Source: a virus
Virus record (IMG/VR): IMGVR_UViG_3300030090_001566
Coordinates: 1-40,136 of that record
Length of the DNA: 40,136 bases
Reading direction: 5' to 3' (one strand)
The notes below the pieces were generated by a model that saw only the letters and a list, made by a program, of their open reading frames with translations, was not told the DNA's origin and did not search any database. Positions within the stretch are counted from its first letter, which is position 1, and each line of letters begins with the position of its first letter. Positions 24,988 through 40,136 of this stretch are shown here, piece after piece. The position numbers were made by a program, and so were the translations under genes.

Positions 24988-27900
24988 ATGAGTAAAGGAT
25001 TATACGATTTTTTAATTACAACAGGTAACTATAGTAAGTCTTTTCAAGACTTTCAATCACAGTTTTCTAATGAAAACTCTATACAACAACTACATGAGTA
25101 CATGTCTGGTAACGGTACGTATTCTAAAGGTTTAAATGAATTTAAAGATCAATTTTTTGCTTCAAAAACTAAAGCTCCAACAACGCCAAACCCAAATGTT
25201 TCTAACCAAAACGTAGAAAATAAAAAAGAAGAAGAAAAACTAGATGTTAATGAGCAGTTAAAAACAGAAGCTAGAGACCTGTCTATTGACAAAGAGTTTT
25301 GGGCCACTCAAAAATATAAAAGAGAAGATTACTACCTAAGAGACGGTAAGTGGTATTATAAAAGTCCTAAAACCCAAAAAGAAGTTTTAATAGCTAGAAC
25401 AAAAGAAGATGGCAAAGCGGCTAACCCTGGTACTGTTGCACGTCTAGATGCTTTAGAACAAGAAGAGGCTAGATACCAAAATAACTTGCTTAAAATACCA
25501 GCTGATAAAAAAGTACAACAAATTAAAAGCGAGGGTGGTGAAGAACCAAACCGTAACAGTTATACGTTTGGTAACATGAAAAAAGTACGTGGTTATACAG
25601 ATGATAACGGTAATTTTATAGAGCTACCAGGAAAGCCTGGAGGATATGGCGGTTCATATACAGATCCAGCCACTGGTAAAACTTATAAAGTAACATTACA
25701 TCCAAACGCAAACTCTCAAGGATTTGTAGATATAGGTAAGACAGCTTATGAAAGAGATTTAAAAAAGTGGAAAGAAACTACAGGTTCTCAAATTGAAGAA
25801 GTAAGAAGAAAGTCTGGAGCTATAAGTAAAGAGTCGGTTGAGATTAATTACAAGCTTCAAAAAAACCAAACAGAGTATAACAAAAAAATATCTGAACTAC
25901 AGATAAAATTAAACGCTGCTAAAACAGAAGAAGAAAAAAGTAAAGTAAGAGAAGAATTAAAACAGGTTCAGGCTGAGTTTGATAAAAAGTTAGATGGTAT
26001 AGATTACGAAGAGCGTAATAAAAAAGGTAAAGAAAACATGCCTACTGTTACAGCTGATTTAGCTGGTATGGATGATGACAATGCTATAGACGAGCTTGTT
26101 GATAAGTTTGGTAAATATGGTTTTAAATTTGAAATATCTAGAACCGACGGTGACAAAGTAACTATCACGTCTTCTAATGGAGATGTTGAAACTTTTGAGT
26201 TTGATAGTTTTTTTGGTGACGCTTTTGGTGGTGACACAGAAAAAGCTAAAAAACTAGACGAGTGGATGCGACCTAGAGCTGTAGAGTTTAGTAGTGTTGT
26301 AGATGCCTTTCGTTACAGAATGACTTTGAACAATGAAGAAAAAGAAATTAAAAACGAAGAGGCTAGAGTTGAGGTAAATAATTATTACGAAACTGGTAAT
26401 GATAGACTTTACGAAGATTTTATTGAAAACTACGATAGTATACCTAATGATATAGAAGATAGTTACGAAGGAAAAGCAGCTAGAGATATAAAACAATTTG
26501 CTGAAACTTATGGTATGAGTGAAGCAGAAATTAGAAGTTTGTTTTACAATCAATACGGTATTAAATATAACTTAGAAACAAGAAGCGAACTTGATGCAAT
26601 ATACAATGAAGATGGTAAAAGTAGAAAATCTAGAGGAGAGACTAAAAACATTCCAGGTAGAGGATATATTACCATACCACGTAAAGGATATAATTTAGAT
26701 GGTATAGACGATTTTAAAAAGAAGTTAGATAATCGACTTTCAGCTAAATTTAAAGATGTTATTAAGAACGAAAAAATAGCTATACAAAATATAGCTTTTG
26801 ATAGATTTAGAAAATTACCGTTTGTTTCAGAAGATATGAGTAATGAACAAATGGCCAAAATATATGGAAAAGAAATAAATGCAATAATAGAGGATATAAC
26901 AGAAGAGTGGAAAAACGTTTCAAATACTACTGACGAAAATTTTGATGTAGAAGCTTATAAAAACCATCCAGTATATAACCAGCTTAAGGGTATACACGGA
27001 GCAGAAGCTATTCAAAACGAGGTTACTAGACGTGTTTCAGAAGAAATAGAAGGTTTAGGTGGGGAGCTTTTTGAAAAAAGTAAAGCACAAACAACTTTAA
27101 GAGATAAAACAAATATAAGAATTGATGATTTAGATGAAAGAACAAGGTATGTAACTAATTCAGTTGAAGTTTTATCTAAAGAACTTAGAAACATAGATGG
27201 AGATGGGAGTACTTATGGGTTAGAATATGAGGCTAAATGGTTGAAGGAAAATGAGCCTTTGCTAAAACAAAAAATAGAAAAAATTAAAAGTGGCGTTAGA
27301 ACAGAAGAACAAAGAATTGCCGCTAACAAACAGATTGAGACCTTACTTAATGAATTTAATTCTCATGCAGAAAAATATAACAATTTAATAAACAGTAGAA
27401 AAAATATATATAGTGCTGCTACTGCTTTACAAGTTGAAGCTAGTGAAATTAAGTTAGAAGAAAACGACTTAAAAGTAATAGTAGACGGATTAAAAAGAAA
27501 TCATCAACCAGGAACTCAAGCAGTTAATTCTTTAGCTAATGGAACTATTGATTTAATACAAGGTTTACTTACTACTGGTGAAGCTGTTTTATATTACGCT
27601 AATCCTTTTGGTAGATTAGGTGATTACTTAGTAGACTCTGGTGTTATTGAAAACGAAACGCTTAAAACCGTCGTAGAAGTAGGTCAAGTTTTAACAGCTT
27701 CTCAGGGCGGTAGGTTTGACGATGATTTAACTACTCAGTCGTTTATGGGACACATGAACGAAAGGATTGACGCTTGGCAACAAGAATCTAAAGACCTTGT
27801 CCAAGAACCTCCTAAATTTGATGAGATAGATAGTTTAGCTGATTTTGGTGAATGGGCCGCTGTTATGTTGGGAAGCCAAGCCCCTCAGCTAGCTTTAATG

Positions 27901-30900
27901 TATGCTACAGCTGGACAAAGCCCACTTATACAGGGACTGTTAATGTCTTCTACCGCAGGTGGACAAAAGTTCATGGGCATGGAAGAACAAAAAAATCTTT
28001 ATTTAGAAACTAGCGGTGTATACGGTGAGAACTTTGGTTTTGATCAAATGTTTTGGAGTAGCGCCGCTGTTGGTCTTGCAGAATCTTTATCTGAAAGAGT
28101 TACTTTTGGACAGATAAAAGGTGTCAATAGACTATTAAAACAAAACACAGCTGCATCTAACGGTTTTAAAGACTACATGAGAAACGTGGTGTTTACTAAA
28201 GACTACGCTAAGTTTGTAGGTAAAGGTGTTTATGATTTAGTAGAAGAAGGTGGTTCAGAAGTTATAGCTACTATGTCTGAAAACTTTGTAGATATACTAA
28301 ACGGTGAAGATATAAGTATATATGATAATATACAAGAGTCTTTTGTGAGTGGTGGTTTAATTTCTGGTGCTATTAAATCTCCTATTTTATTTGGTCAAAT
28401 GATAGCGCCTTTTCAAAGTAGTAATAATCTTGCTATAATAGAAGACGCTGATAGAAGAATAAAAGAATTAGAAGGTTTAATATCTATGGGTAGACCTACT
28501 AAGGGAGCTACACAAGAAGAAATTGAAGCTTGGGAAATACAAGAAGCTAAATACGCAGAACAAATAGTTGAGTTAGGAAGAAAAAAGATAGATGCTCTTG
28601 GTCGTGATATTAAGAGAGTAAATTCAATGGATGACGCTGCTAAACGTCAAGTTCTTGATATAGATAGTAAAACAAGAGACCTAGTAAAACAAAGACAAGA
28701 AATAACAAACGATCCAAATTTAGATCAACAAACAGTAAATGAAAGAGTAGCTTCTATAGACAATCAAATACAAGAAGAAGTTAACAAAAGAGATGAAATA
28801 CTAGGAAGGTACACGCCAGATATTGTAGACAAGCGTTACGAACGAGACATGGAGTCGGCTAAAAAAAGAGCTGCAGAAAGAAACGCTTTAGGCGGTACTC
28901 AAGTTACTGTTACAGATGGTAATGACATGGATATGTTTGATTTGTTAGCCAACACAGAAGGTTATAATGTTACTAGAAATGAAGATGGAAGTATACAAAA
29001 CATAACTCTTCAACCTGGTGCTAGAAAAGGTTTGATAAATCAAATGAAAGAAGCTTTAGAAAGTGGAAACCTTAACCCTGAAGATACTAAAATGGTTCAA
29101 AGAGATTTAAACTTTTTGGAGTCTGGCACTACTATAACAATGTCACCAGATGATTTCTTTAGATTAAACGGTAGTAAAAGTAATTATGGCGTTCAGATAC
29201 CTGTTTTTGATAATAATGGACAGTTAAAAGAACAAAAAGTTTTTGTTAATAAAGCTAGATCTTTAGATGCTGGAAAGTTTTATACAGCTTCACACGAATT
29301 GTTACATGCCGTTTTACATCAAACGCTTAAAAGAGATCCAGAGCTTCAAGAAGCTTTTGGTACTATGGTGTTAAACGCTTTAAACAATACGGGTGTTAAA
29401 ATACCTCAAGCTTTAAAAGATCGTATTGACCAATATTCTAAAGAAGAAGGTAGAGGTGAAGAAATAATGGCGTTGTTATCTGAAGCTGTAAGAGAAGGCG
29501 ATATAAAATTACCTGGTACAGCTATTAGAAATATGAAAAATTTCTTTAGAACATGGACACAGCAAACTACTAATAGAGATATATCTTTTGATACAGACCA
29601 AGACGTAATAAACTTTATTCAAGATTATTCTTTTTCAATGAAGAATAACAAAGAAAATAAAGCTATAACTAGAATGTGGCAAAAGGGAGCAGGTGGAAAA
29701 CTTGTAGCGGATGCACAGACTGAATATAGAAAAAGAGTTGAGCAAAACAAGGTAAATCCAGATCAAGCTATGTTTTCTAAAAACGTAGAACAAGCAATGA
29801 GCAATCAACCTGACCTAATGTCAGATATAGATTCTTTTGTTAAAAATCCAGACGGAACGCCAAAGTACAAAACTCAAAATGATTTTATAAACTCTATAGA
29901 TGGTGGTGAGGCTTATAACTTAATAACAAATACTAAAAAGCTAGATGGTTTAATCCAGGCTGGTATTATGGCACAAGGTATAAATACACCTCAAGCTATA
30001 GGTGAGTTTACTAGAAACGTAAAGGATAAACTAGGTGAAAGACTATTAAAGAACTTTGACCCAGCCAAAAACGACAGTTTGTTTGGTTGGTTAACTGGTG
30101 TTTCGGGTGGTGCTGGACAATCAATTATTTACAGAGCTAAAGGTGATGTAATGGTTGATTATAAAAAACGAGTACAAACTACCTCTGCTGACGTAGGTGT
30201 AAGAACTGATACCGGCGAAACAATAGGTACTCAATTTGAAGCAGATGTAGATACTGATGTACAAGCTTTTGAAAATGAAATTATAATACCAGGCTCTAAT
30301 GTTAGAGTTGATAAAAACCAAACCGATGTAGTATTTTTAGAAAGCGTAAACGCTAAAGTTACTCAATCAAAAGTAAATTCAGTAATTCAAAAAGCAGGAG
30401 TTAATTTAAAAGGCTTAACATATAACGGTACAAAGAAAATGTTGGTGCAACACGACGGCGGTAAACCAAAGTCTAAGCGTAAACCTACAGGTCCTTTGTA
30501 TGGAGCACTTCAGTCTGTTAGTAATCTATTTGGTGTAGATTCAATGCGTGTAATAAAAGAACAGGATTTAACTGGTGCACAAAGAACTTTGGCTAGAGAG
30601 TATATAAAGGAAAATGCTCAACAGTTAATTGACATGTTGCCAGAAGGAGAAAACAGAAGTGGTGACGCTACGGGTGTTGCTAACACTGTTCTTGGAGAAT
30701 TTTATATTAAAGGCGAAAGAATATCTATGGCTGAAAGCGCTAGCGCTAAAGGTAAAAATAGACAAACTAAAAAAGAAAATATAACAACCCAAGAGTTTAT
30801 AGAGTTTTTTAATAAACCAGGTACAAAATCAGATGGCGCTATAAGAGCCCTAATTGTTCAGTCGGCAACAATAGCAGCTAATCAATCAATAAGACAAAAC

Positions 30901-33900
30901 GCTATTGAAAACACGACTGAAACTCTTAGTACCATAGCTTTAGTTGGAGATGGTAAGTCTGCTACTATGTTTAGTAAGAGAGAGGGTATGCCTAATTATA
31001 AAAGGCTAGGCGCTTTTGATGCAAAGCTAAATGAGCAAAAAAGAAATATTCTTTGGAATAGAGTTGACCAGTTTGCTGGTACATTAGCAGCCACTAATGC
31101 AGTTCCACTTCAAAATAAAAAAGGAGATATAGTTAATTTAGAGTTATCTAAAAGATCTATAAAAGAAGGTATTAAAGATGTGTTTGGAGACGTTTACACT
31201 AAGGCAGAGTTAAATGAGTTGTCAGAGTCTATTTTAGATATAGTTAAATCTAAACCTTTAAAATACTCAACTGAAGTTGATGGTAAAATAAAAAATAGAA
31301 AAGCACAAGATGTTATTGAAAAACAAAGCGCTATCGTAGAGGCTTTGTATACTTCTAAAGTAGATGCCGACACTAAGATAGCTAGCTTTACAGGAACGGG
31401 TGCAACTACAGCAGGTTTAGGTAACGACACAGATCTAATGGATGTGTCTAGAGCTAGAATTAAAACTTATATTGACACTAGAGTAGAGGAAATTAAAAAA
31501 GAATATGCTGGACAAGGTGATGCTGTTATTGGTGGACAAATAATAAAAATGTTATCAGAACAAATGGACCAGCACATTACAGCTGGTAAGGTTTGGGATG
31601 GTAGACAACAATTGTTTGCTGCTACGCCTGACTTTGTTTTAAACGTAGCATCTAAAATACCAGGTTTAAATTTTGCTATCAAAATTTCTAGTAACGGTAG
31701 AACTGAATTAGATACTAAAACGGCAACTTATAACTCTAATAGTAATATAACTAGAAGTTCTGACAATTTACTGTCTACAGATAGTAGAAGTAAAAAATCA
31801 GAAAACTTAAGCCAGAAAGATATTAACAAAAGAAAAAGCTCTGTATTTACAAAACTTGATCCTAACTTAACAGGAACAAATATACAACAGCAAAGGTTTA
31901 AAAATTATCCTCAATCAGGGCCGGGTTTAATAACAGATTTTATTTTTAATAAAGACAGAGTTTCAGAAAGGAAACAAGACGCTTTAAACGCACAGTTAGA
32001 ATTAAATAACTTTGTTAGGTTTGTAGCTAAAGAATACAAAGAAGGTAATATGTCAGAAAGAGAACTGCAAGTTCACATGGCTACATTACTTTCTAATATG
32101 AAACCTACTTTGGCAAGAGCAGCTATGCCTAAGTACATAGCTAAAGGCTTGTTGCCTGATGGTTATCAAAAAATGACTAAAAAACAAATTGAAAACTATT
32201 TGAAAAACACAGGCGCCGTGTATGAACACATGCAGCCTAGAGTTGGTATGGTTATACATTTGTTTAATCAACATATAAATGGTAATGGCGTAACAGACAC
32301 ACAGGTTCCTGATTTCTTTTCAAGATACAACATAGCTATTATACCTGAAGCTATGGACGTTAAGGCTTTGAAAGCCGCTGGATTAAACTCATCTTTAGCA
32401 CCAGGACAAACAATGACTATGCCAGAGTGGATAAGGTATTATAACGCTTTAACAAAGCTTAAAATGGAACATCTAGACACTTTAATAGATATTGATACTG
32501 GAACAGAGTTAGAACCTACTGCTCATATAGTTAAAGCTAAGGAAATATTAAATTCTCAACGTAGCGAATCTAACATGTTTAGTAAAGCTGTTAATAATGC
32601 TAATGCTATAAATGAGAACACACCATCAAGAGGTGCTTCTGTATTTGACTTTGATGAAACACTAATTGACAAAGGTGAAAATATCATTGTTGCTACTAAC
32701 CCAGAAACAGGTGACAAAGTAGAAATAAGTAGTGGACAGTGGCCTATACAAGGACCTAAGTATGCAGAACAAGGTTATAGTTTTGATTTTAGTGATTTTA
32801 CATTTGTTAAAGGTGGTATTGACGGGCCGTTATTACAGAAACTTAGAAACAGAATAAAAAAGTTTGGACCTGAAAATAACTACGTGTTAACAGCTAGGCC
32901 TGCTGACGCGGCCCCACATATACACGAGTGGTTAAAATCAAAAGGTATAAATATACCTTTAGAAAATATTACAGGACTAGGTAATAGTACTGGTGAAGCT
33001 AAAGCTTTGTGGATGGCTCAAAAATATTCTGAAGGTTATAATGACATGTATTTTGTAGACGATGCTATGCCTAATGTTACTGCTGTTAAAGATATAATGG
33101 ACCAGCTAGATATTAAAGGTAAATCTGTTCAAGCAAAAATACAATTTAGCAAAAGAATTAAATCTGAATTTAGTAACATAATAAACAAAGCTGGACAACA
33201 AGAAATAGACCTTGATCTTAATAGAATATTAGAACAAACTAAAGGTGTAAAAGCTGAGTCTAGGTTCTCTGATGCACAAGCAAAAGTTAGAGGTAGTAAA
33301 AAAGGTAAATACGCTTTCTTTGTTCCACCATCAGCCGAAGATTTTAAAGGTTTAATATATAGATTTTTATCTAAGGGTAAAGTTGGTGAACAACAAATGG
33401 CTTTCTTTAAAAAGGCTTTATTTGATCCTTTTGCTAGAGCAACAACTTCTATTGATATTCAAAAACAAAAAATACAAAACGAGTATAGACAATTATTAAA
33501 ACAGTTTCCTGATGTAAAGGCAGATTTAAACGAGGTTATATACAACAACTTTACGTTAGGACAAATGATAAGAGTTTATAATTGGAATAAAGCTGGTTTT
33601 GAAATACCTGGTTTGTCACAAAGAGACTTAAACAACATAGTAAAAGAAATGGAAGCGGATGCAGAGGCTTTAGCTTTTGCTGATTCATTAGGTATAATAA
33701 CAAATCAAAACGATGGTTATATAGAACCTGGAGAGTTTTGGTTAGTAGAAAATATACAAAGTGATTTAAACAAAATTACAAACGAAATAAATAGAGATTT
33801 ACATCTACAGGAGTTTAAACAAAATAGAGAAAAAATATTTGGTGAGTGGCAAGGTGATAGGCTTGTTGGTCCTAATATGAATAAAATAGAAGCTATATAT

Positions 33901-35511
33901 GGTTCTAATTTTAGAGAAGCTCTTGAAGATATATTGTACCGTATGGAGTATGGTACTAAAAGAAACAAAGGTAACAATAGACTTGTAAACAGATTTAACA
34001 ATTGGGCTAATCAATCAGTTGGTGCAATCATGTTCTTTAACATGAGATCAGCTTTACTACAAACTATATCGTCTGTTAACTATTTAAACTGGTCAGACAA
34101 TAATCCTTTAAAAGCTGGTTTAGCATTAGCTAACTTCCCACAGTTTTTAAAAGACTTTTCAATGATATTTAACTCTGATATGTTAAAGCAAAGACGTGCT
34201 GGTAACCAAAGAGGTATTAATGAAGCTGAACTTGCTCAAGCTGTAGGTGGTGTTGGTGTAGCTAACAGAGTTAAAGCTATGTTAAACTGGTTACTAACAA
34301 AAGGATTTTTACCTACACAAATAGCAGATAGTTTTGCTATTGCTTCTGGTGGTGCTACGTTTTTTAGAAACAGAGTTAACAGTTATATTAAACAAGGTTA
34401 TACACAGACCGAGGCTGAAACAAAAGCTTTTCAAGATTTTCAAGAAGTAACTGAAGAGTCACAGCAGTCTTCAAGACCTGATATGATTTCGCAACAACAA
34501 GCTTCACCATTAGGTAGATATATATTAGCTTTTAAAAATACACCTATGCAGTATGCTAGGTTAATGAAGAGGTCTTATTTAGATTTAGTAAACGGTAGAG
34601 GTGATTACAAAACAAACGTTGGTAAGATAATATATTATGGTGGTATACAGAATTTAATATTTAACGGGTTACAAGCAGCGTTAGGTGCTCTTATTGGAGA
34701 CGACGAAGAAGAAGACAAGAAAACAAGTGAGCATGTTAGAATTGCAAATTCAATGGTTGATTCTATTTTAGGTGGTATTGGTTTTGGTGGTAATGCTGTT
34801 ATGACTGTTAAAAATGCTATATTAGAGTACAACAAACAAAATAATAAAAATTGGAACTCTGATCACACGTATACAATACTTAAGTTAGTAAGTTTTTCCC
34901 CTACTATTGGTAGTAAATTAAGAAAAGTGTATTCAAGTATACAAACAGAAAAGTTCAACAAAGATGTTATTAATGAAATGAATATGCTAGATATAGACAA
35001 TCCTAGATGGTCTGCTATAGCAAACCTTATTTCTGGTGCAACTAATATACCGTTAGACAGATTAGTCAAGAAAATGGATAATATAGATGCTGCTCTCACT
35101 GAAGATATATCTAACATAGAAAGATTTGCCTTGTTAATGGGTTGGAATACTTGGGACTTAGATATTGAAGACCAGGATATAATAGCTGTTGAAAACGAAA
35201 TAAAAGAAAGAAAACAGATAGAGGTAAAAGAAAAAAGAGAAAAAAAGAAAGAGGAACTTAAAAAGAAGAAAGAAGAAGATGATAGATTAAAAGAACAAGA
35301 AAACAAAGATAAAAACGACGGTCGTTGTGTAGCTATAACTAGTAGTGGTGCTAGGTGTAAAAATGAAGCTGTAGCAAATGGTTATTGTACTATACACGCC
35401 AAGGTAGAACAAGGTGAAAAAGAAGTACAGTGCTCTAAAATTAAATCTAATGGTGAAAGATGTAAAATGAAAACTAAAGCTAAAAGTGGTTTGTGTTTTT
35501 ATCACGATTAA
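24988..35511 (+). CDS. Giant multi-domain ejection protein / large polyvalent protein
   Basis: 3507 residues, in the gp16 position. In order: two N-terminal repeats (GLYDFLITTGNYSKSFQDF and LHEYMSGNGTYSKGLNEF, about 4-57); a coiled coil (271-337); hydrophobic or amphipathic segments (about 850-890, 956-995, 1122-1142); HELLH metallopeptidase motif (1436-1440); a block FDPAKNDSLFGWLTG near 1690; HAD phosphatase motifs DFDET (D2554, D2556), T2635 (VLTARP), K2672 and DD 2691-2692 (YFVDDAMPN); C-terminal hydrophobic helices (about 3007-3061 and 3214-3230); a charged coiled coil; and two Cys/His knuckles (3447-3470, 3482-3506). FSK junctions lie at 1595, 1994, 2530 and 2719. Such proteins are ejected with the DNA. 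T7 gp16 is 1318 residues, so this is far larger. Catalytic roles are inferred. Confidence 0.75.
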   Translation: MSKGLYDFLITTGNYSKSFQDFQSQFSNENSIQQLHEYMSGNGTYSKGLNEFKDQFFASKTKAPTTPNPNVSNQNVENKKEEEKLDVNEQLKTEARDLSIDKEFWATQKYKREDYYLRDGKWYYKSPKTQKEVLIARTKEDGKAANPGTVARLDALEQEEARYQNNLLKIPADKKVQQIKSEGGEEPNRNSYTFGNMKKVRGYTDDNGNFIELPGKPGGYGGSYTDPATGKTYKVTLHPNANSQGFVDIGKTAYERDLKKWKETTGSQIEEVRRKSGAISKESVEINYKLQKNQTEYNKKISELQIKLNAAKTEEEKSKVREELKQVQAEFDKKLDGIDYEERNKKGKENMPTVTADLAGMDDDNAIDELVDKFGKYGFKFEISRTDGDKVTITSSNGDVETFEFDSFFGDAFGGDTEKAKKLDEWMRPRAVEFSSVVDAFRYRMTLNNEEKEIKNEEARVEVNNYYETGNDRLYEDFIENYDSIPNDIEDSYEGKAARDIKQFAETYGMSEAEIRSLFYNQYGIKYNLETRSELDAIYNEDGKSRKSRGETKNIPGRGYITIPRKGYNLDGIDDFKKKLDNRLSAKFKDVIKNEKIAIQNIAFDRFRKLPFVSEDMSNEQMAKIYGKEINAIIEDITEEWKNVSNTTDENFDVEAYKNHPVYNQLKGIHGAEAIQNEVTRRVSEEIEGLGGELFEKSKAQTTLRDKTNIRIDDLDERTRYVTNSVEVLSKELRNIDGDGSTYGLEYEAKWLKENEPLLKQKIEKIKSGVRTEEQRIAANKQIETLLNEFNSHAEKYNNLINSRKNIYSAATALQVEASEIKLEENDLKVIVDGLKRNHQPGTQAVNSLANGTIDLIQGLLTTGEAVLYYANPFGRLGDYLVDSGVIENETLKTVVEVGQVLTASQGGRFDDDLTTQSFMGHMNERIDAWQQESKDLVQEPPKFDEIDSLADFGEWAAVMLGSQAPQLALMYATAGQSPLIQGLLMSSTAGGQKFMGMEEQKNLYLETSGVYGENFGFDQMFWSSAAVGLAESLSERVTFGQIKGVNRLLKQNTAASNGFKDYMRNVVFTKDYAKFVGKGVYDLVEEGGSEVIATMSENFVDILNGEDISIYDNIQESFVSGGLISGAIKSPILFGQMIAPFQSSNNLAIIEDADRRIKELEGLISMGRPTKGATQEEIEAWEIQEAKYAEQIVELGRKKIDALGRDIKRVNSMDDAAKRQVLDIDSKTRDLVKQRQEITNDPNLDQQTVNERVASIDNQIQEEVNKRDEILGRYTPDIVDKRYERDMESAKKRAAERNALGGTQVTVTDGNDMDMFDLLANTEGYNVTRNEDGSIQNITLQPGARKGLINQMKEALESGNLNPEDTKMVQRDLNFLESGTTITMSPDDFFRLNGSKSNYGVQIPVFDNNGQLKEQKVFVNKARSLDAGKFYTASHELLHAVLHQTLKRDPELQEAFGTMVLNALNNTGVKIPQALKDRIDQYSKEEGRGEEIMALLSEAVREGDIKLPGTAIRNMKNFFRTWTQQTTNRDISFDTDQDVINFIQDYSFSMKNNKENKAITRMWQKGAGGKLVADAQTEYRKRVEQNKVNPDQAMFSKNVEQAMSNQPDLMSDIDSFVKNPDGTPKYKTQNDFINSIDGGEAYNLITNTKKLDGLIQAGIMAQGINTPQAIGEFTRNVKDKLGERLLKNFDPAKNDSLFGWLTGVSGGAGQSIIYRAKGDVMVDYKKRVQTTSADVGVRTDTGETIGTQFEADVDTDVQAFENEIIIPGSNVRVDKNQTDVVFLESVNAKVTQSKVNSVIQKAGVNLKGLTYNGTKKMLVQHDGGKPKSKRKPTGPLYGALQSVSNLFGVDSMRVIKEQDLTGAQRTLAREYIKENAQQLIDMLPEGENRSGDATGVANTVLGEFYIKGERISMAESASAKGKNRQTKKENITTQEFIEFFNKPGTKSDGAIRALIVQSATIAANQSIRQNAIENTTETLSTIALVGDGKSATMFSKREGMPNYKRLGAFDAKLNEQKRNILWNRVDQFAGTLAATNAVPLQNKKGDIVNLELSKRSIKEGIKDVFGDVYTKAELNELSESILDIVKSKPLKYSTEVDGKIKNRKAQDVIEKQSAIVEALYTSKVDADTKIASFTGTGATTAGLGNDTDLMDVSRARIKTYIDTRVEEIKKEYAGQGDAVIGGQIIKMLSEQMDQHITAGKVWDGRQQLFAATPDFVLNVASKIPGLNFAIKISSNGRTELDTKTATYNSNSNITRSSDNLLSTDSRSKKSENLSQKDINKRKSSVFTKLDPNLTGTNIQQQRFKNYPQSGPGLITDFIFNKDRVSERKQDALNAQLELNNFVRFVAKEYKEGNMSERELQVHMATLLSNMKPTLARAAMPKYIAKGLLPDGYQKMTKKQIENYLKNTGAVYEHMQPRVGMVIHLFNQHINGNGVTDTQVPDFFSRYNIAIIPEAMDVKALKAAGLNSSLAPGQTMTMPEWIRYYNALTKLKMEHLDTLIDIDTGTELEPTAHIVKAKEILNSQRSESNMFSKAVNNANAINENTPSRGASVFDFDETLIDKGENIIVATNPETGDKVEISSGQWPIQGPKYAEQGYSFDFSDFTFVKGGIDGPLLQKLRNRIKKFGPENNYVLTARPADAAPHIHEWLKSKGINIPLENITGLGNSTGEAKALWMAQKYSEGYNDMYFVDDAMPNVTAVKDIMDQLDIKGKSVQAKIQFSKRIKSEFSNIINKAGQQEIDLDLNRILEQTKGVKAESRFSDAQAKVRGSKKGKYAFFVPPSAEDFKGLIYRFLSKGKVGEQQMAFFKKALFDPFARATTSIDIQKQKIQNEYRQLLKQFPDVKADLNEVIYNNFTLGQMIRVYNWNKAGFEIPGLSQRDLNNIVKEMEADAEALAFADSLGIITNQNDGYIEPGEFWLVENIQSDLNKITNEINRDLHLQEFKQNREKIFGEWQGDRLVGPNMNKIEAIYGSNFREALEDILYRMEYGTKRNKGNNRLVNRFNNWANQSVGAIMFFNMRSALLQTISSVNYLNWSDNNPLKAGLALANFPQFLKDFSMIFNSDMLKQRRAGNQRGINEAELAQAVGGVGVANRVKAMLNWLLTKGFLPTQIADSFAIASGGATFFRNRVNSYIKQGYTQTEAETKAFQDFQEVTEESQQSSRPDMISQQQASPLGRYILAFKNTPMQYARLMKRSYLDLVNGRGDYKTNVGKIIYYGGIQNLIFNGLQAALGALIGDDEEEDKKTSEHVRIANSMVDSILGGIGFGGNAVMTVKNAILEYNKQNNKNWNSDHTYTILKLVSFSPTIGSKLRKVYSSIQTEKFNKDVINEMNMLDIDNPRWSAIANLISGATNIPLDRLVKKMDNIDAALTEDISNIERFALLMGWNTWDLDIEDQDIIAVENEIKERKQIEVKEKREKKKEELKKKKEEDDRLKEQENKDKNDGRCVAITSSGARCKNEAVANGYCTIHAKVEQGEKEVQCSKIKSNGERCKMKTKAKSGLCFYHD

Positions 35512-35560: not shown

Positions 35561-35839
35561 ATGGCAAAAGAATTAAATGAAGATACAAGCTTTCAAGTAA
35601 GCATTAAAACTTTAGGTGGTATAGCTGCTTTAATAGCCACGCTAGTGGGTATGTGGTTTACTTTACAATCAGACATTGCTGAGGCTAAAGAGTTACCAGC
35701 TCCACCAGATCCTGAGGTTACGCGTATGGAGTTTGATATGAAAGATCAAATGATTAGACAGACTATCATGACCACACAGGAGGACGTTCAAGAAATTAAA
35801 AAGTCTATTGAAAAAATAGAAGAAAAACTTTACGAATAA
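35561..35839 (+). CDS. Single-TM coiled-coil protein
   Basis: 92 residues. A short polar N-terminus (MAKELNEDTSFQVSIKTL) leads into one membrane segment (about 19-36: GGIAALIATLVGMWFTLQ), then a Pro-rich acidic linker (AKELPAPPDPEVTRMEFD) and a C-terminal coiled coil (about 60-92). This resembles small one-TM proteins common in marine phage late regions. Candidate roles are a second holin/antiholin, spanin-like or envelope-remodelling protein. It is the first gene of the coupled 3' cassette and its stop overlaps the next start as TAATG (35837-35841). Function is not established by sequence. Confidence 0.7.
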   Translation: MAKELNEDTSFQVSIKTLGGIAALIATLVGMWFTLQSDIAEAKELPAPPDPEVTRMEFDMKDQMIRQTIMTTQEDVQEIKKSIEKIEEKLYE

Positions 35840-36210
35840 TGAAAGAAAATAAAACACCTTGGAGCGTATATGTAGTTTACATGCTAGTATTAATATTCAT
35901 GATGGTAGCGGGTACAGTTAAAGGTCAAAATATTTGTAAGACAGACGTGTGCGTAGTTGAGTTTAATGCTGGTTGGAACAAAGCTAATAGTGTAGACTGG
36001 TTAGATAAGTTAAATGATTGTGGGGTTCAAAGAATAAACATAGACGAAGGTGACTGGCAAAAGAAATACAATATAGTTGTAGTTCCTACAATTATAGTTT
36101 TTAACGGCGAAGAAGTAAAACGTTATCAAGCAGATCTTAGTTTTACAATGGGTGTAACTAGAAAAGAAGTACAAGAAGAAGTTGACGAAATATTAATGGA
36201 AGATTTTTAA
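35839..36210 (+). CDS. Envelope-targeted thioredoxin-fold protein lacking CxxC
   Basis: 123 residues. The N-terminus (about 8-28: WSVYVVYMLVLIFMMVAGTV) is a signal peptide or anchor. Residues 38-100 follow a thioredoxin fold: CVVEFNAGWNKANSVDWLDK, then NIDEGDW, then YNIVVVPTIIVFNGEEVKRY, with the conserved cis-Pro at P83. The redox motif WCxxC is replaced by W46-NKAN, so it cannot be a normal dithiol oxidoreductase. Cys at 33, 38 and 61 are elsewhere. I infer a periplasmic protein that uses the fold for binding. It overlaps the preceding gene by 1 nt and is 2 nt before the next. Confidence 0.65.
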   Translation: MKENKTPWSVYVVYMLVLIFMMVAGTVKGQNICKTDVCVVEFNAGWNKANSVDWLDKLNDCGVQRINIDEGDWQKKYNIVVVPTIIVFNGEEVKRYQADLSFTMGVTRKEVQEEVDEILMEDF

Positions 36211-36212
36211 TT

Positions 36213-36602
36213 ATGGCCTACAAACAACCAAATAATCCTTTTGTTAAAACACAGTGTGGTAGACGTTACGCTCCTCTTGCTGTACAAATAAAAGCAAAGT
36301 TTAATTCACCTTTTGCAAAAGCAGATCCACGTAGAACTATTGGGCCTGGTAAAAATTTTAATAAAGTATCTAAAGATAAAAGCGCTACAGGTGGAGCGGC
36401 TGGTGGAGGTATGACTGAGAAAGGAGTAGCTGAATACAAACGTAATAACCCAGGTAGTAAATTAAAAACAGCAGTAACAACCAAGCCTTCAAAGTTAAAA
36501 CCAGGTAGCAAGGCAGCTAATCGTAGAAAATCATTTTGTGCTAGATCAAGAGGTTGGACTGGTGAAAGAGGTAAAGCAGCAAGAAGAAGATGGAACTGTT
36601 AA
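36213..36602 (+). CDS. Small basic Cys/Arg/Lys-rich protein
   Basis: 129 residues, very basic. Blocks: NPFVKTQCGRRYAPLAVQIK with FNSPFAK; GGGMTEKGVAEYKRNNPGSK then LKTAVTTKPSKLKPGSKAAN; and RRKSFCARSRGWTGERGKAA then RRRWNC. The middle-to-end pattern (GVAEYKRNNPGSKLKTAVT, KPGSKAANRRKSFCAR) resembles a domain I associate with marine viruses, with no defined function known to me. Three Cys (C15, one in FCAR and the last residue) may bind zinc or form disulfides. There is no signal peptide. The end overlaps the PAP2-like gene by 13 nt. DNA or RNA binding is possible given the charge. Confidence 0.7.
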   Translation: MAYKQPNNPFVKTQCGRRYAPLAVQIKAKFNSPFAKADPRRTIGPGKNFNKVSKDKSATGGAAGGGMTEKGVAEYKRNNPGSKLKTAVTTKPSKLKPGSKAANRRKSFCARSRGWTGERGKAARRRWNC

Positions 36603-37117
36603 AAGGTTTTCCAATACAAAAATACTTAGACAAGAAACCGCCTAGTGATAATTCAACAACAACTAAAGGTGAAGTTCAAGAACTAACTAAACTACCTATT
36701 AGAGAAAAGTTTATTAAAGAAAAAGATGATATTAAAAAATCTTTTGAAGGTATAGTAGGTAAAGAACCACTAGTACAAAAGTTAATCAATGAGTCCGCGC
36801 CTATTGTAATGAAAATAAAAAAACATCACAATAGACCTAGGCCTAAGGTTGTGGCTAATAAAATAAAAACAAACATGAAAGATGTAGAGATGGCTTCAAT
36901 GAAAACACCTTCGTACCCATCTGGTCATTCAGTTCAAGGTATATTAATAGCTAACGCATTAGCTGATAAACATCCTAACAAAAGAGATAAATTAAAAAAA
37001 ATGGGTAGAGATATATCGTACAGCAGAAGATCTGCTAGGGCTCATTATAAATCTGACTCAACGTTTGGAGAGCAGATAGGTAAAGATATGTACAACTATA
37101 TAAAAGATAAAATATGA
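36590..37117 (+). CDS. Soluble PAP2-type acid phosphatase
   Basis: 175 residues with all three PAP2 signature motifs in order: a K-x6-R-P motif (K75 to R82-P83 or K77 to R84-P85, within KIKKHHNRPRP), PSGH at 110-113 (PSYPSGHS) and SR-x5-H-x3-D at 145-156 (SRRSARAHYKSD). These bind phosphate and supply the catalytic His (H152) and the general acid (H113). The family includes lipid phosphatases, bacterial class A acid phosphatases and vanadium haloperoxidases. No membrane spans are present, so a soluble acid-phosphatase type is more likely than a lipid phosphatase. There is no signal peptide. It overlaps the previous gene by 13 nt and the next as ATGA. Substrate unknown. Confidence 0.8.
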   Translation: MELLKGFPIQKYLDKKPPSDNSTTTKGEVQELTKLPIREKFIKEKDDIKKSFEGIVGKEPLVQKLINESAPIVMKIKKHHNRPRPKVVANKIKTNMKDVEMASMKTPSYPSGHSVQGILIANALADKHPNKRDKLKKMGRDISYSRRSARAHYKSDSTFGEQIGKDMYNYIKDKI

Positions 37118-37287: not shown

Positions 37288-37823
37288 TGGCTTACGATAT
37301 TAAGTCTAAGTTTAAAGCTAATAGTCCTCTTCCTTGTTGGAAAGGATATGAAAGAGTACCTGGTACAAGGCCAGGTGCAAAAGGTAGTTGTCGTAAATCT
37401 TCACCTAATAAAACTATGGGTTACGAGGTTAAAATAGAAAAAGGTAAGGTTGTTAGTGAAAAAGAAAGACCTCATAATGATTTTAAACCAGGTAGAGAAG
37501 GTGAAAGTCAACACGAGGCTTATCATAATAGGTTTCCAGAAAAACCTTTTACAGACGCAGAAGGTAGACCTTTAAAACAACAGAAAGGTGGTGGTACTAA
37601 AAAAGTATGTTTGCCTAAAGCAAAAATAGACAGAATGAGTAGCTCTGAAAGAAGTAAAGTAACAAGCGCTAAAAGAACAGCGGCTGCTAAAGGAGACTAT
37701 AGAAGATCTGGAAAAAGTAATGTTAGTGGTGCTCGTAAAAAAGGAGCTACACTAAGAGACTGGTTTAAAAAAGAAGACTGGAGACAAGTTGGTAACCCAA
37801 GTAAAAAATGTGGAGAAGCATGA
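37287..37823 (+). CDS. Small basic Cys-containing protein
   Basis: 178 residues, rich in Lys, Arg, Gly and Ser. The N-terminus MAYDIKSKFKANSPLPCWKG then YERVPGTRPGAKGSCRK carries both the FK...SPL tag seen elsewhere and a block, CWKGYERVPGT...GSC, that recurs in marine phage small proteins. A middle segment HNDFKPGREGESQHEAYHNR is His-rich; a Lys/Ser-rich part with VCLPKAKIDRMSSSERSKVT follows; the end reads LRDWFKKEDWRQVGNPSKKC. Four Cys are spread along the chain. No signal peptide. It is coupled to both neighbours (TAATG at the start, ATGA at the end). Function unknown; nucleic acid or metal binding possible. Confidence 0.7.
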   Translation: MAYDIKSKFKANSPLPCWKGYERVPGTRPGAKGSCRKSSPNKTMGYEVKIEKGKVVSEKERPHNDFKPGREGESQHEAYHNRFPEKPFTDAEGRPLKQQKGGGTKKVCLPKAKIDRMSSSERSKVTSAKRTAAAKGDYRRSGKSNVSGARKKGATLRDWFKKEDWRQVGNPSKKCGEA

Positions 37824-40033
37824 TTAGATTTTTATTATTAGCATTATTACCAACATTGGTATTTGCACAGAAAGAAGTTGTTATACATATAAAAACAGAT
37901 GGTTATCCTAGCGAAACTAGATGGATGTTATACGATTCTGTTTATCAAGGTGATACTATAGACTATGTAGACTATGGTCACTATACGCAACCTAACTTTA
38001 TGCATAGAGACACTTTGTATATTGATAGTGTACAAAACATATCGTTTGTTATATTTGATAGTTATGGTGATGGTATTGCAAATGGAGAATATTATGTTAC
38101 TATATGTGGTGATACTGTAGTTGATTATCCTGTTAGTACTTTTACTACAGGTTTAATACACAATAGAGCTGTGCCACAGTGCATGCCACAACCTCCACCA
38201 CCACCACCATTAGGTCCATGTATACCAACGATGATAAATATAAATCTTGACCAGTTTACAGATGAGACTAGTTGGGAAATAACAGATACAATGGGTAATG
38301 TTTTAATATCAGGAGGCCCATATCCAAACGTTCCTGATTACCAACCACAATATATTCCAACTTGCCTTCCTACAGGTGTTTTAAGGTTTACGATATTTGA
38401 TACGTATGGAGATGGTATAGCTGGAAGCCAGTGGGGTGGAAACGATGGCTCGTATTACGTAATGCAATGTGGAGATACCTTGGTGTACGGTACCACACCT
38501 AATTTTGGGACAGATTCCACGCATGTATTTATAAGTGATACTTGTATACCACCACCACCAGTGCCGGGCTGTATGGACAATAATTATATTGAATTTAATC
38601 CAGCAGCCACAGTAAGCGATAGTAGCTGTGCTACTTTAAAAATATATGGTTGTACTGATAGTACAATGTTTAACTATGACTCAACCGCAAACACTATGGA
38701 TTACATAGATAGTTGTGATTACACCCTTGTGCTGCATGACCTTGCGGGTAATGGTTGGGTTGGTAGTAGATTAGAAATTTACCAAGACGACACGTTTCAG
38801 TTTGTAATGACTTCTGGTTTTAACCAAACTTACACTCTACAATTAAACGCGCCTAAGCTAGTAAGAGCTAAGTTTTTTATTAATCAACAAGCTTCTCAAA
38901 CCGCGCCTGAATGTGGGTTTACTTTAATAAATCCTATGGGTGATACTATTATAAGTGTTAAGCCACCTTTTATGCAGCCGTTTTTTGTTTATAGTGGTAT
39001 AACCTATTGTGGCAATGAGTGTATTGAAATAATTGAAGGGTGTATGGATAATATGGCTTTTAACTATGATAGTGTCGCAAACACACCACTACCTTGTTAT
39101 TACGTACCGGGATGTATGTCTCCTGCATATCTAGAGTATCATATCGACACATCTAACGGGGTTTATACAGATTTTAATATACAGGATAGCTGTAACACAT
39201 TAGCTGTGTTTGGATGTACAGATATGGCTTCGTTTAATTATGACTCTACTGCTAACGTAGATAACGGTGGTTGTTTACCAGTTGTTATGGGTTGTATGGA
39301 AAGTCTAGCATTAAATTATAATCCGCTAGCAAACACACCTGATACGTGTATACCTTATATATACGGATGTACAGACCCGACAATGTTTAACTATGATAGC
39401 TTAGCTAATACAGACGACGGTAGTTGTGAGCCGTTTGTGTATGGTTGCATGGATTCAACTATGTTTAATTTTAATCCACTTGCAAATGCTCAAGATAATA
39501 TTACTCCTTGTGTTCCTTTTATATATGGTTGTACTGACCCGAGTATGTTCAACTACCAAGCTGACGCTAATACAGAAGATTTCAGCTGCATACCATTTAT
39601 TTATGGGTGTACTGATAGCACCGCTATTAATTACGATTCACTTGCTAACACTGATAATAATTCGTGTATACCGGTGGTTGTGGGATGTATGGACCAAGAT
39701 GCTTGGAACTACGAAGAACTAGCAAATGTACCTGATACTTGTTTGTTTGCAGCTGAGTGTATAACAGGACCAGGTGAACCTTACTTTTTAAACGATCCTT
39801 GTTATGCTTGGGTTATAGACGTTGACGAGTACTGTTGTACAAATGACTGGGATAGTATATGTCAATTAACTTACGATTATTGTGAAGGAACCTGGGTAGG
39901 ACCAATACCTCAACGTATATCACAACTAATAATGATAACAGATATATTAGGTAGGCCTGCTAGAATAGAGAAAAATAAATTATTGTTCTTTATATACAGA
40001 GACGGAACAGTTGAAAAGAAATTTATAAAATGA
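37820..40033 (+). CDS. Secreted Cys-repeat protein with T9SS-like C-terminal tail
   Basis: 737 residues from ATG 37820, which overlaps the previous stop as ATGA; an ATG 12 nt upstream is less likely. The N-terminus MIRFLLLALLPTLVFAQ is a signal peptide. Residues about 18-250 hold two beta-domain repeats (FVIFDSYGDGIANGEYYV and FTIFDTYGDGIAGSQW), and a third related unit starts at YTLVLHDLAGNGWVGSR. About 11 Cys repeats of the type YGCTDPTMFNYDSLANTDDG-SC follow (38567-39742), then a DEYCC..DWDSIC module. The last 39 residues (LIMITDILGRPAR, FFIYRDGTVEKKFIK) resemble the end of type A T9SS sorting domains. This suggests secretion and outer-surface display through the host's type IX system. Role unknown; adhesin or superinfection block are candidates. 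Confidence 0.75.
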   Translation: MIRFLLLALLPTLVFAQKEVVIHIKTDGYPSETRWMLYDSVYQGDTIDYVDYGHYTQPNFMHRDTLYIDSVQNISFVIFDSYGDGIANGEYYVTICGDTVVDYPVSTFTTGLIHNRAVPQCMPQPPPPPPLGPCIPTMININLDQFTDETSWEITDTMGNVLISGGPYPNVPDYQPQYIPTCLPTGVLRFTIFDTYGDGIAGSQWGGNDGSYYVMQCGDTLVYGTTPNFGTDSTHVFISDTCIPPPPVPGCMDNNYIEFNPAATVSDSSCATLKIYGCTDSTMFNYDSTANTMDYIDSCDYTLVLHDLAGNGWVGSRLEIYQDDTFQFVMTSGFNQTYTLQLNAPKLVRAKFFINQQASQTAPECGFTLINPMGDTIISVKPPFMQPFFVYSGITYCGNECIEIIEGCMDNMAFNYDSVANTPLPCYYVPGCMSPAYLEYHIDTSNGVYTDFNIQDSCNTLAVFGCTDMASFNYDSTANVDNGGCLPVVMGCMESLALNYNPLANTPDTCIPYIYGCTDPTMFNYDSLANTDDGSCEPFVYGCMDSTMFNFNPLANAQDNITPCVPFIYGCTDPSMFNYQADANTEDFSCIPFIYGCTDSTAINYDSLANTDNNSCIPVVVGCMDQDAWNYEELANVPDTCLFAAECITGPGEPYFLNDPCYAWVIDVDEYCCTNDWDSICQLTYDYCEGTWVGPIPQRISQLIMITDILGRPARIEKNKLLFFIYRDGTVEKKFIK
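38567..39742 (+). repeat. Tandem Cys-repeat array (GC[TM]D...NY...AN...C), about 11 units
   Basis: About eleven diverged units of roughly 25-35 residues begin GC(T/M)D or GCM(S/E) and end at a Cys, usually with (F/I)NY and (A/S)N in the middle. Unit length is always a multiple of three nucleotides and units alternate GCTD and GCMD forms. They likely form a rigid, disulfide-linked surface rod. Confidence 0.8.
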
Positions 40034-40136
40034 AAAAACTATTAATACTATTATTACTACCTATATTTAGTTATTCACAAAGTAATGTAAAAGATATATT
40101 TAAGTTTTCTACATTTTATGCGGCTGTAAACGGTGG
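40030..40136 (+). CDS. Secreted protein, 3' end cut by window edge
   Basis: The ATG overlaps the stop of the Cys-repeat gene (ATGA, 40030-40033). The visible 35 residues begin with a signal peptide, MKKLLILLLLPIFSYSQ, of Flavobacteriia type, followed by SNVKDIFKFSTFYAAVNG. The frame is open to the window end. No family can be assigned from this start; coupling and the second signal peptide in a row suggest a secreted pair with its neighbour. Confidence 0.65.
   Translation, partial: MKKLLILLLLPIFSYSQSNVKDIFKFSTFYAAVNG

Follow-up and report, generated by a model that had tools for sequence, protein, structure and literature searches.

The Locus and Its Genes

The stretch of DNA analysed (the window; 40,136 nucleotides) belongs to a record of 42,277 bases and ends at a gap of 10 N. 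The record covers part of the genome of a marine, crAss-like phage related to the Crassvirales; crAss-type major capsid and muzzle proteins are present, with phrog_13704 (E 3e-101) as the capsid match, PF25729 (E 2.7e-6) as the muzzle match and an additional match to phrog_14478 (E 1.4e-66). Nearest among the isolate phages searched is Maribacter phage Panino. A giant protein of 3507 amino acids is encoded at window positions 24988-35511; at its C-terminal end are two short Cys/His motifs, RCVAITSSGARCKN...YCTIH and QCSKIKSNGERCKM...CFYHD, which look like zinc-binding repeats.

The four genes dealt with here, and the features of the third, are listed in Table 1. Between them lie genes for a DUF6321 protein (36213-36602) and a PAP2-superfamily phosphatase-like protein (36590-37117), the homologues of which often relocate jointly. 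The mechanically called ORF of the Cys-repeat protein starts at 37808, and the signal peptide begins at the ATG at 37820. The barrel gene overlaps the Cys-repeat gene by an ATGA, ends at record position 41040 and encodes 336 amino acids with the 10-N gap included. It is followed in the rest of the record by a Peptidase_M15_3 gene and one further ORF, so that the late operon does not end with the two genes for secreted proteins, as had been assumed in the preliminary description.

Table 1. Features of the module region; positions refer to the window.
Feature	Positions	Strand	Basis
Module gene 1: 92-aa protein, one transmembrane (TM) helix and C-terminal coiled coil (i-spanin/holin-like topology)	35561..35839	+	locus comparison, hydropathy
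Module gene 2: secreted protein of thioredoxin fold, WNxxN in place of WCxxC, cis-Pro-Thr retained	35839..36210	+	profile search
Module gene 3: Cys-repeat protein	37820..40033	+	intact ORF, 737 aa
Predicted Sec signal peptide, residues 1-16, cleavage before Q17	37820..37867	+	pattern-based; invariant Q17
Three predicted beta-sandwich domains, residues 18-117, 134-239 and 298-394	37871..39001	+	AlphaFold model m0968b158f7ce
Eleven GC[MT][DES]..C repeats, residues 250-299 and 407-641	38567..39742	+	pattern count
Cys-rich module CYAWVxxVDxYCC..WDxxCQ..Y.YC, residues 647-688	39758..39883	+	homologue alignment
Short C-terminal sorting-type tail, residues 701-737	39920..40030	+	homologue comparison
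Module gene 4, first 107 bases: predicted secreted outer-membrane beta-barrel	40030..40136	+	AlphaFold, Foldseek

Architecture of the Cys-Repeat Protein

The hydrophobic N-terminus, MIRFLLLALLPTLVFA, is followed across the predicted cleavage site by Q17, which is invariant across 52 full-length homologues. The Bacteroidetes "Q-rule" predicts Gln right after signal-peptide cleavage (PMC5837995), and the predicted signal peptide, which fits this rule, would be of the Bacteroidota type. Together with the N-terminus of the barrel protein, MKKLLILLLLPIFSYSQ, this agrees with the earlier assignment of Flavobacteriia-type signal peptides to both genes.

Behind the signal peptide, three beta-sandwich domains are predicted with block pLDDT values mostly of 80-90; domains one and two carry DxYGDG signatures, and the third separates the two blocks of repeats. 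The protein contains 37 Cys and exactly 11 repeats, where about 11 had been noticed before, while in 1000 shuffles of the protein the pattern was matched at most once each. The Cys-rich module, likewise noticed before, is invariant or nearly so in 64 homologues. A fold search with the full-length model gave no convincing match, the top ones being long multi-domain proteins with very low TM-scores, and a catalytic domain was found neither by HMM scans nor by the fold search. In HMM scans, the window protein had no match in Pfam, NCBIfam or PDB and a best E of 0.07 in PHROGs; conclusions on it therefore rest on its relatives.

Short and Long C-Terminal Tails

The tail of the window protein, SQLIMITDILGRPARIEKNKLLFFIYRDGTVEKKFIK, is 37 residues long, and the description of a tail of some 40 residues, shorter than usual, was correct in length and sequence. 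Concerning the proposed likeness to a CTD of the type IX secretion system (T9SS), three strands are indeed predicted by AlphaFold (residues 703-707, 720-726 and 731-736; block pLDDT about 80), but not the seven-stranded, Ig-like beta-sandwich, which could not be formed by the short tail alone. By the motif definitions for type A CTDs (PMC10202324), the short tails are devoid of motifs A-C, including YPNP, and keep the D-motif (D..GR) at the extreme C-terminus; the near-terminal Lys of motif E is kept in all short and long tails examined. The D-motif and the C-terminal Lys are the core on which the function of a type A CTD depends; in experiments by others, the final 22 residues of one such CTD were enough for export, and the near-terminal Lys mattered (PMC10202324, PMC10994853).

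In HMM scans, the window tail alone matches neither TIGR04183 nor PF18962 nor any other T9SS model. The expected resemblance to T9SS CTDs thus fails for the window protein but holds for its family, 28 out of 64 phage homologues matching both TIGR04183 and PF18962 (type A T9SS; E to 6e-14). The type B tail TIGR04131 was not found in the Cys-repeat cargo by these scans.

The homologue set comprises 80 IMG/VR loci seeded by the Cys-repeat protein, 71 of them with a complete 3' end. After the common Cys-rich module, 38 of the 71 complete homologues continue with a short tail and 33 with a long one. Long tails typically contain YPNPT, a D-motif-like VYD..G, GxY and a terminal Lys, and their profile matches the solved T9SS CTDs 8glk, 8glj, 5hfs and 5ag8. 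Two homologues, L012 and L016, show 80% identity along a body of about 700 residues; the similarity stops at the tails, which are unrelated, one being short and the other a YPNP-type CTD. On the tree of the barrel proteins, the tail type switches about 6 times, with at least three switches forced by well-supported branches. Since short and long tails are swapped at the same site of the same protein, they probably do the same job. Direct homology of the two is at most suggested: against the long-CTD profile, the score of the window tail is not significantly above that of its shuffled versions (p 0.16), the mean of the short-tail group is 2.4 bits compared with 0.1 (sd 0.4) for shuffles, and profile-profile alignment with hhalign gives a probability of 5-9%, with one alignment in the expected register.

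The Short Tail in Flavobacteriales Genomes

A profile of the short tail is positive in 69 of 196 genomes from the order of a Flavobacteriales MAG, many of which have 20-38 copies (richest, at least 38), and, under a stricter cutoff, in 14 of 295 genomes of a wider class sample. In the bacterial loci that were read, the tail lies about 32 residues before the stop, at the extreme C-terminus; where the 5' end is present, the proteins mostly have a signal peptide. They carry LRR, thioredoxin, beta-lactamase-fold, PKD and PHB-esterase domains. An alignment of tails from small Flavobacteriales genomes reads ITDLLGRetk..N..LFYIYDDGTVEKKIIIE-stop over 37-40 residues. None of ten such proteins scanned matches a T9SS model, and neither Pfam nor NCBIfam has a model covering the short tail. 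SprA is encoded in 66 of the 69 carrier genomes and GldM in two of the remaining three, a correlation that is confounded by SprA also tracking free-living as against reduced (endosymbiont) genomes.

The natural tail swaps draw attention to a short C-terminal tail that neither Pfam nor NCBIfam describes. With it, many secreted proteins from ocean Flavobacteriales that are listed as "hypothetical" would be reclassified, and a minimal signal for the T9SS would be defined. The type A CTDs of the homologues, the tail swaps and the multiple copies of the short tail in T9SS-bearing Flavobacteriales all argue for the notion, put forward in the preliminary description, of a phage cargo for the host T9SS. 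At the level of sequence, a T9SS export route for the Cys-repeat protein is well supported.

A Conserved Four-Gene Envelope Module

Hydropathy of the first gene product reaches about 1.7 around residues 15-36, and profile scans gave no match to a spanin or holin family. The profile of the second matches thioredoxins in the PDB (best, 7e-9). Its CxxC active site is absent, NxxN being found in nearly all of 41 sequences; N47 and N50 are at least 90% conserved, and P83 and T84 are invariant. For the fourth gene product, AlphaFold predicts a barrel of about 12 strands (pLDDT 75), which in Foldseek matches outer-membrane barrels (best E 1.3e-6). Its identification as PorP/SprF was rejected, there being no NCBIfam PorP/SprF match among 60 barrels. 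In the barrel alignment, about half of the proteins begin not with a plain signal peptide but with a signal resembling that of lipoproteins (e.g., SCAAPKKCCSQ), with a lipobox-like N-terminus in 28 of 60, and the mature proteins are about 55-90% identical despite the differing signal types.

The four genes are a conserved envelope module. Of the 80 loci seeded by the Cys-repeat protein, 70 contain the barrel, 67 the thioredoxin-fold protein and 60 the TM protein. Seeding with the barrel yielded at least 589 viral stretches; the 78 loci examined contain the TM protein (70/78), the thioredoxin-fold protein (67/78) and a T9SS-like tail (53/78). Most barrel loci devoid of a tailed partner run off the contig at a distance of about 3 kb or less from the barrel, with few exceptions such as L226. 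The order of the module varies: in some loci the barrel follows the repeat gene, in others it precedes the TM gene.

The module is found in several kinds of marine phages, namely crAss-like ones, contractile-tailed ones and contigs of about 110-120 kb. A crAss capsid is encoded on 23 of 42 carrier contigs tested; those devoid of it include seven contigs of 110-120 kb, two contigs carry a contractile sheath, and a ribonucleotide reductase is present on one carrier contig of about 120 kb. Nine of the crAss-type capsid matches each contain one TAA, which may be an in-frame stop, a frame artefact or a recoded stop. The barrel occurs in a single one of 296 Flavobacteriales genomes, a MAG whose 43-kb contig 32 encodes it together with a contractile-tail sheath and the rest of the module. 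From the sheath it follows that this contig is itself of phage origin, and on this sample of genomes a bacterial origin of the barrel was rejected. The binning of this phage contig in a Flavobacteriales MAG is a hint at the host group. Within the sample, the module is confined to phages.

In 50,697 isolate phage records, the barrel, the TM protein and the thioredoxin-fold protein have no match, and the sole match to the repeats is a cyanophage protein. This protein has similar GCTD..C repeats and adjoins other probable virion proteins, and the Cys-repeat gene itself is located in the late region, 3' of the giant virion protein; its product might thus be imagined as a virion component such as a fibre, which either crosses the envelope or only looks like a secreted protein. 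Such a role is very unlikely in the light of the signal peptide and T9SS-type tail, which are conserved across the family and both missing from the cyanophage protein, and of the signal peptide on the partner barrel.

The main rival explanation for the module is a role in lysis. The TM protein would play the part of a spanin in the inner membrane; the barrel, along with the T9SS-exported protein, would weaken the outer membrane or block the export machinery, and the M15 peptidase would cut the wall. The position between the virion genes and the Peptidase_M15_3 gene, the i-spanin-like layout of module gene 1, the lipobox-like N-termini among the barrels and the conservation across unrelated phage lineages, as is often seen with lysis genes, are in line with this scenario. 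It is nevertheless considered unlikely, as the module genes are often apart from the M15 gene and shuffled in order, and as module gene 1 matches no family of spanins or holins. Moreover, a large exported repeat protein is not known to have a parallel among lysis systems.

Proposed Export Pathway

According to the explanation preferred here, to which a probability of roughly 0.6 is assigned, the Cys-repeat protein would be a late phage protein that is exported by Sec and the host T9SS and displayed on the cell surface as part of the four-gene envelope module. As judged from its signal sequence, it would cross the inner membrane via Sec. In the periplasm, the C-terminal tail would be captured by the host T9SS translocon, with passage through SprA, as the tail evidence and known biology suggest. 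The protein would end up outside the infected cell, presumably as a disulfide-rich, beaded rod. The thioredoxin-fold protein may play a structural part, helping the Cys-rich cargo during its periplasmic stage by means other than redox chemistry, and the adjacent outer-membrane barrel may serve as a surface partner or anchor, in the manner of SprF/PorP-like barrels for type B substrates. As the likeliest benefit, though the least secure step of this scheme, the surface of the infected cell could be remodelled, so that receptors are masked against superinfection or re-adsorption of progeny, or adhesion favours contact with a new host.

Alternatively, the protein might be released to the medium as a diffusible binding protein, given that type A cargo, once carried by PorV, may be set free or anchored to LPS (PMC10994853). 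With a linked outer-membrane barrel that suggests a membrane partner, and with no catalytic domain, release appears highly improbable. An extension of the preferred surface-display pathway, in which the phage supplies its own outer-membrane carrier for the host T9SS, is possible but doubtful; the barrel, confined to phages, would be a shuttle or anchor dedicated to the Cys-repeat protein, and the 37-residue tail would represent an undescribed minimal class of T9SS signal, used by marine Flavobacteriales on dozens of secreted proteins.

Relation to Known Systems

The papers found touch on phage use of the T9SS only briefly (PMC7468147, PMC6949934), and a search of open-access papers, with incomplete coverage, revealed no description of the four-gene module or the short tail. 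With a probable T9SS cargo that belongs to a conserved module shared by several lineages of marine phages, what phages gain from T9SS export becomes testable.

With type A cargo (TIGR04183/PF18962), the Cys-repeat protein shares a signal peptide with Q at +1, homologues with a canonical CTD, and a short tail with a D-like motif and a terminal Lys at the exact C-terminal position; it differs in that the window tail comprises only 37 residues, is devoid of motifs A-C and falls below the scores of both models. The type B systems SprB-SprF and PG1035-PorP (PMC9143113, PMC12618676) resemble the locus in that the gene of an exported repeat protein adjoins that of an outer-membrane barrel, whereas the window tail differs from type B and the barrel was not recognised as PorP/SprF. 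Secreted proteins of Porphyromonas gingivalis phages (PMC10367356) are likewise phage-encoded and have a Bacteroidota Q-rule signal peptide, but the T9SS is absent from the main text of that paper. Also comparable are Cryophage (Bellas et al. 2020, PMC7468147), for which phage-encoded T9SS cargo has already been published, and the crAss-BACON phages, for which ORFs with T9SS domains are mentioned (PMC6949934); in both cases, phage genes encode proteins with T9SS sorting domains. While the cargo there consists of enzymes, a PA14 protein and BACON proteins, it is here a Cys-repeat protein with exchangeable short and long tails, embedded in a conserved four-gene module.
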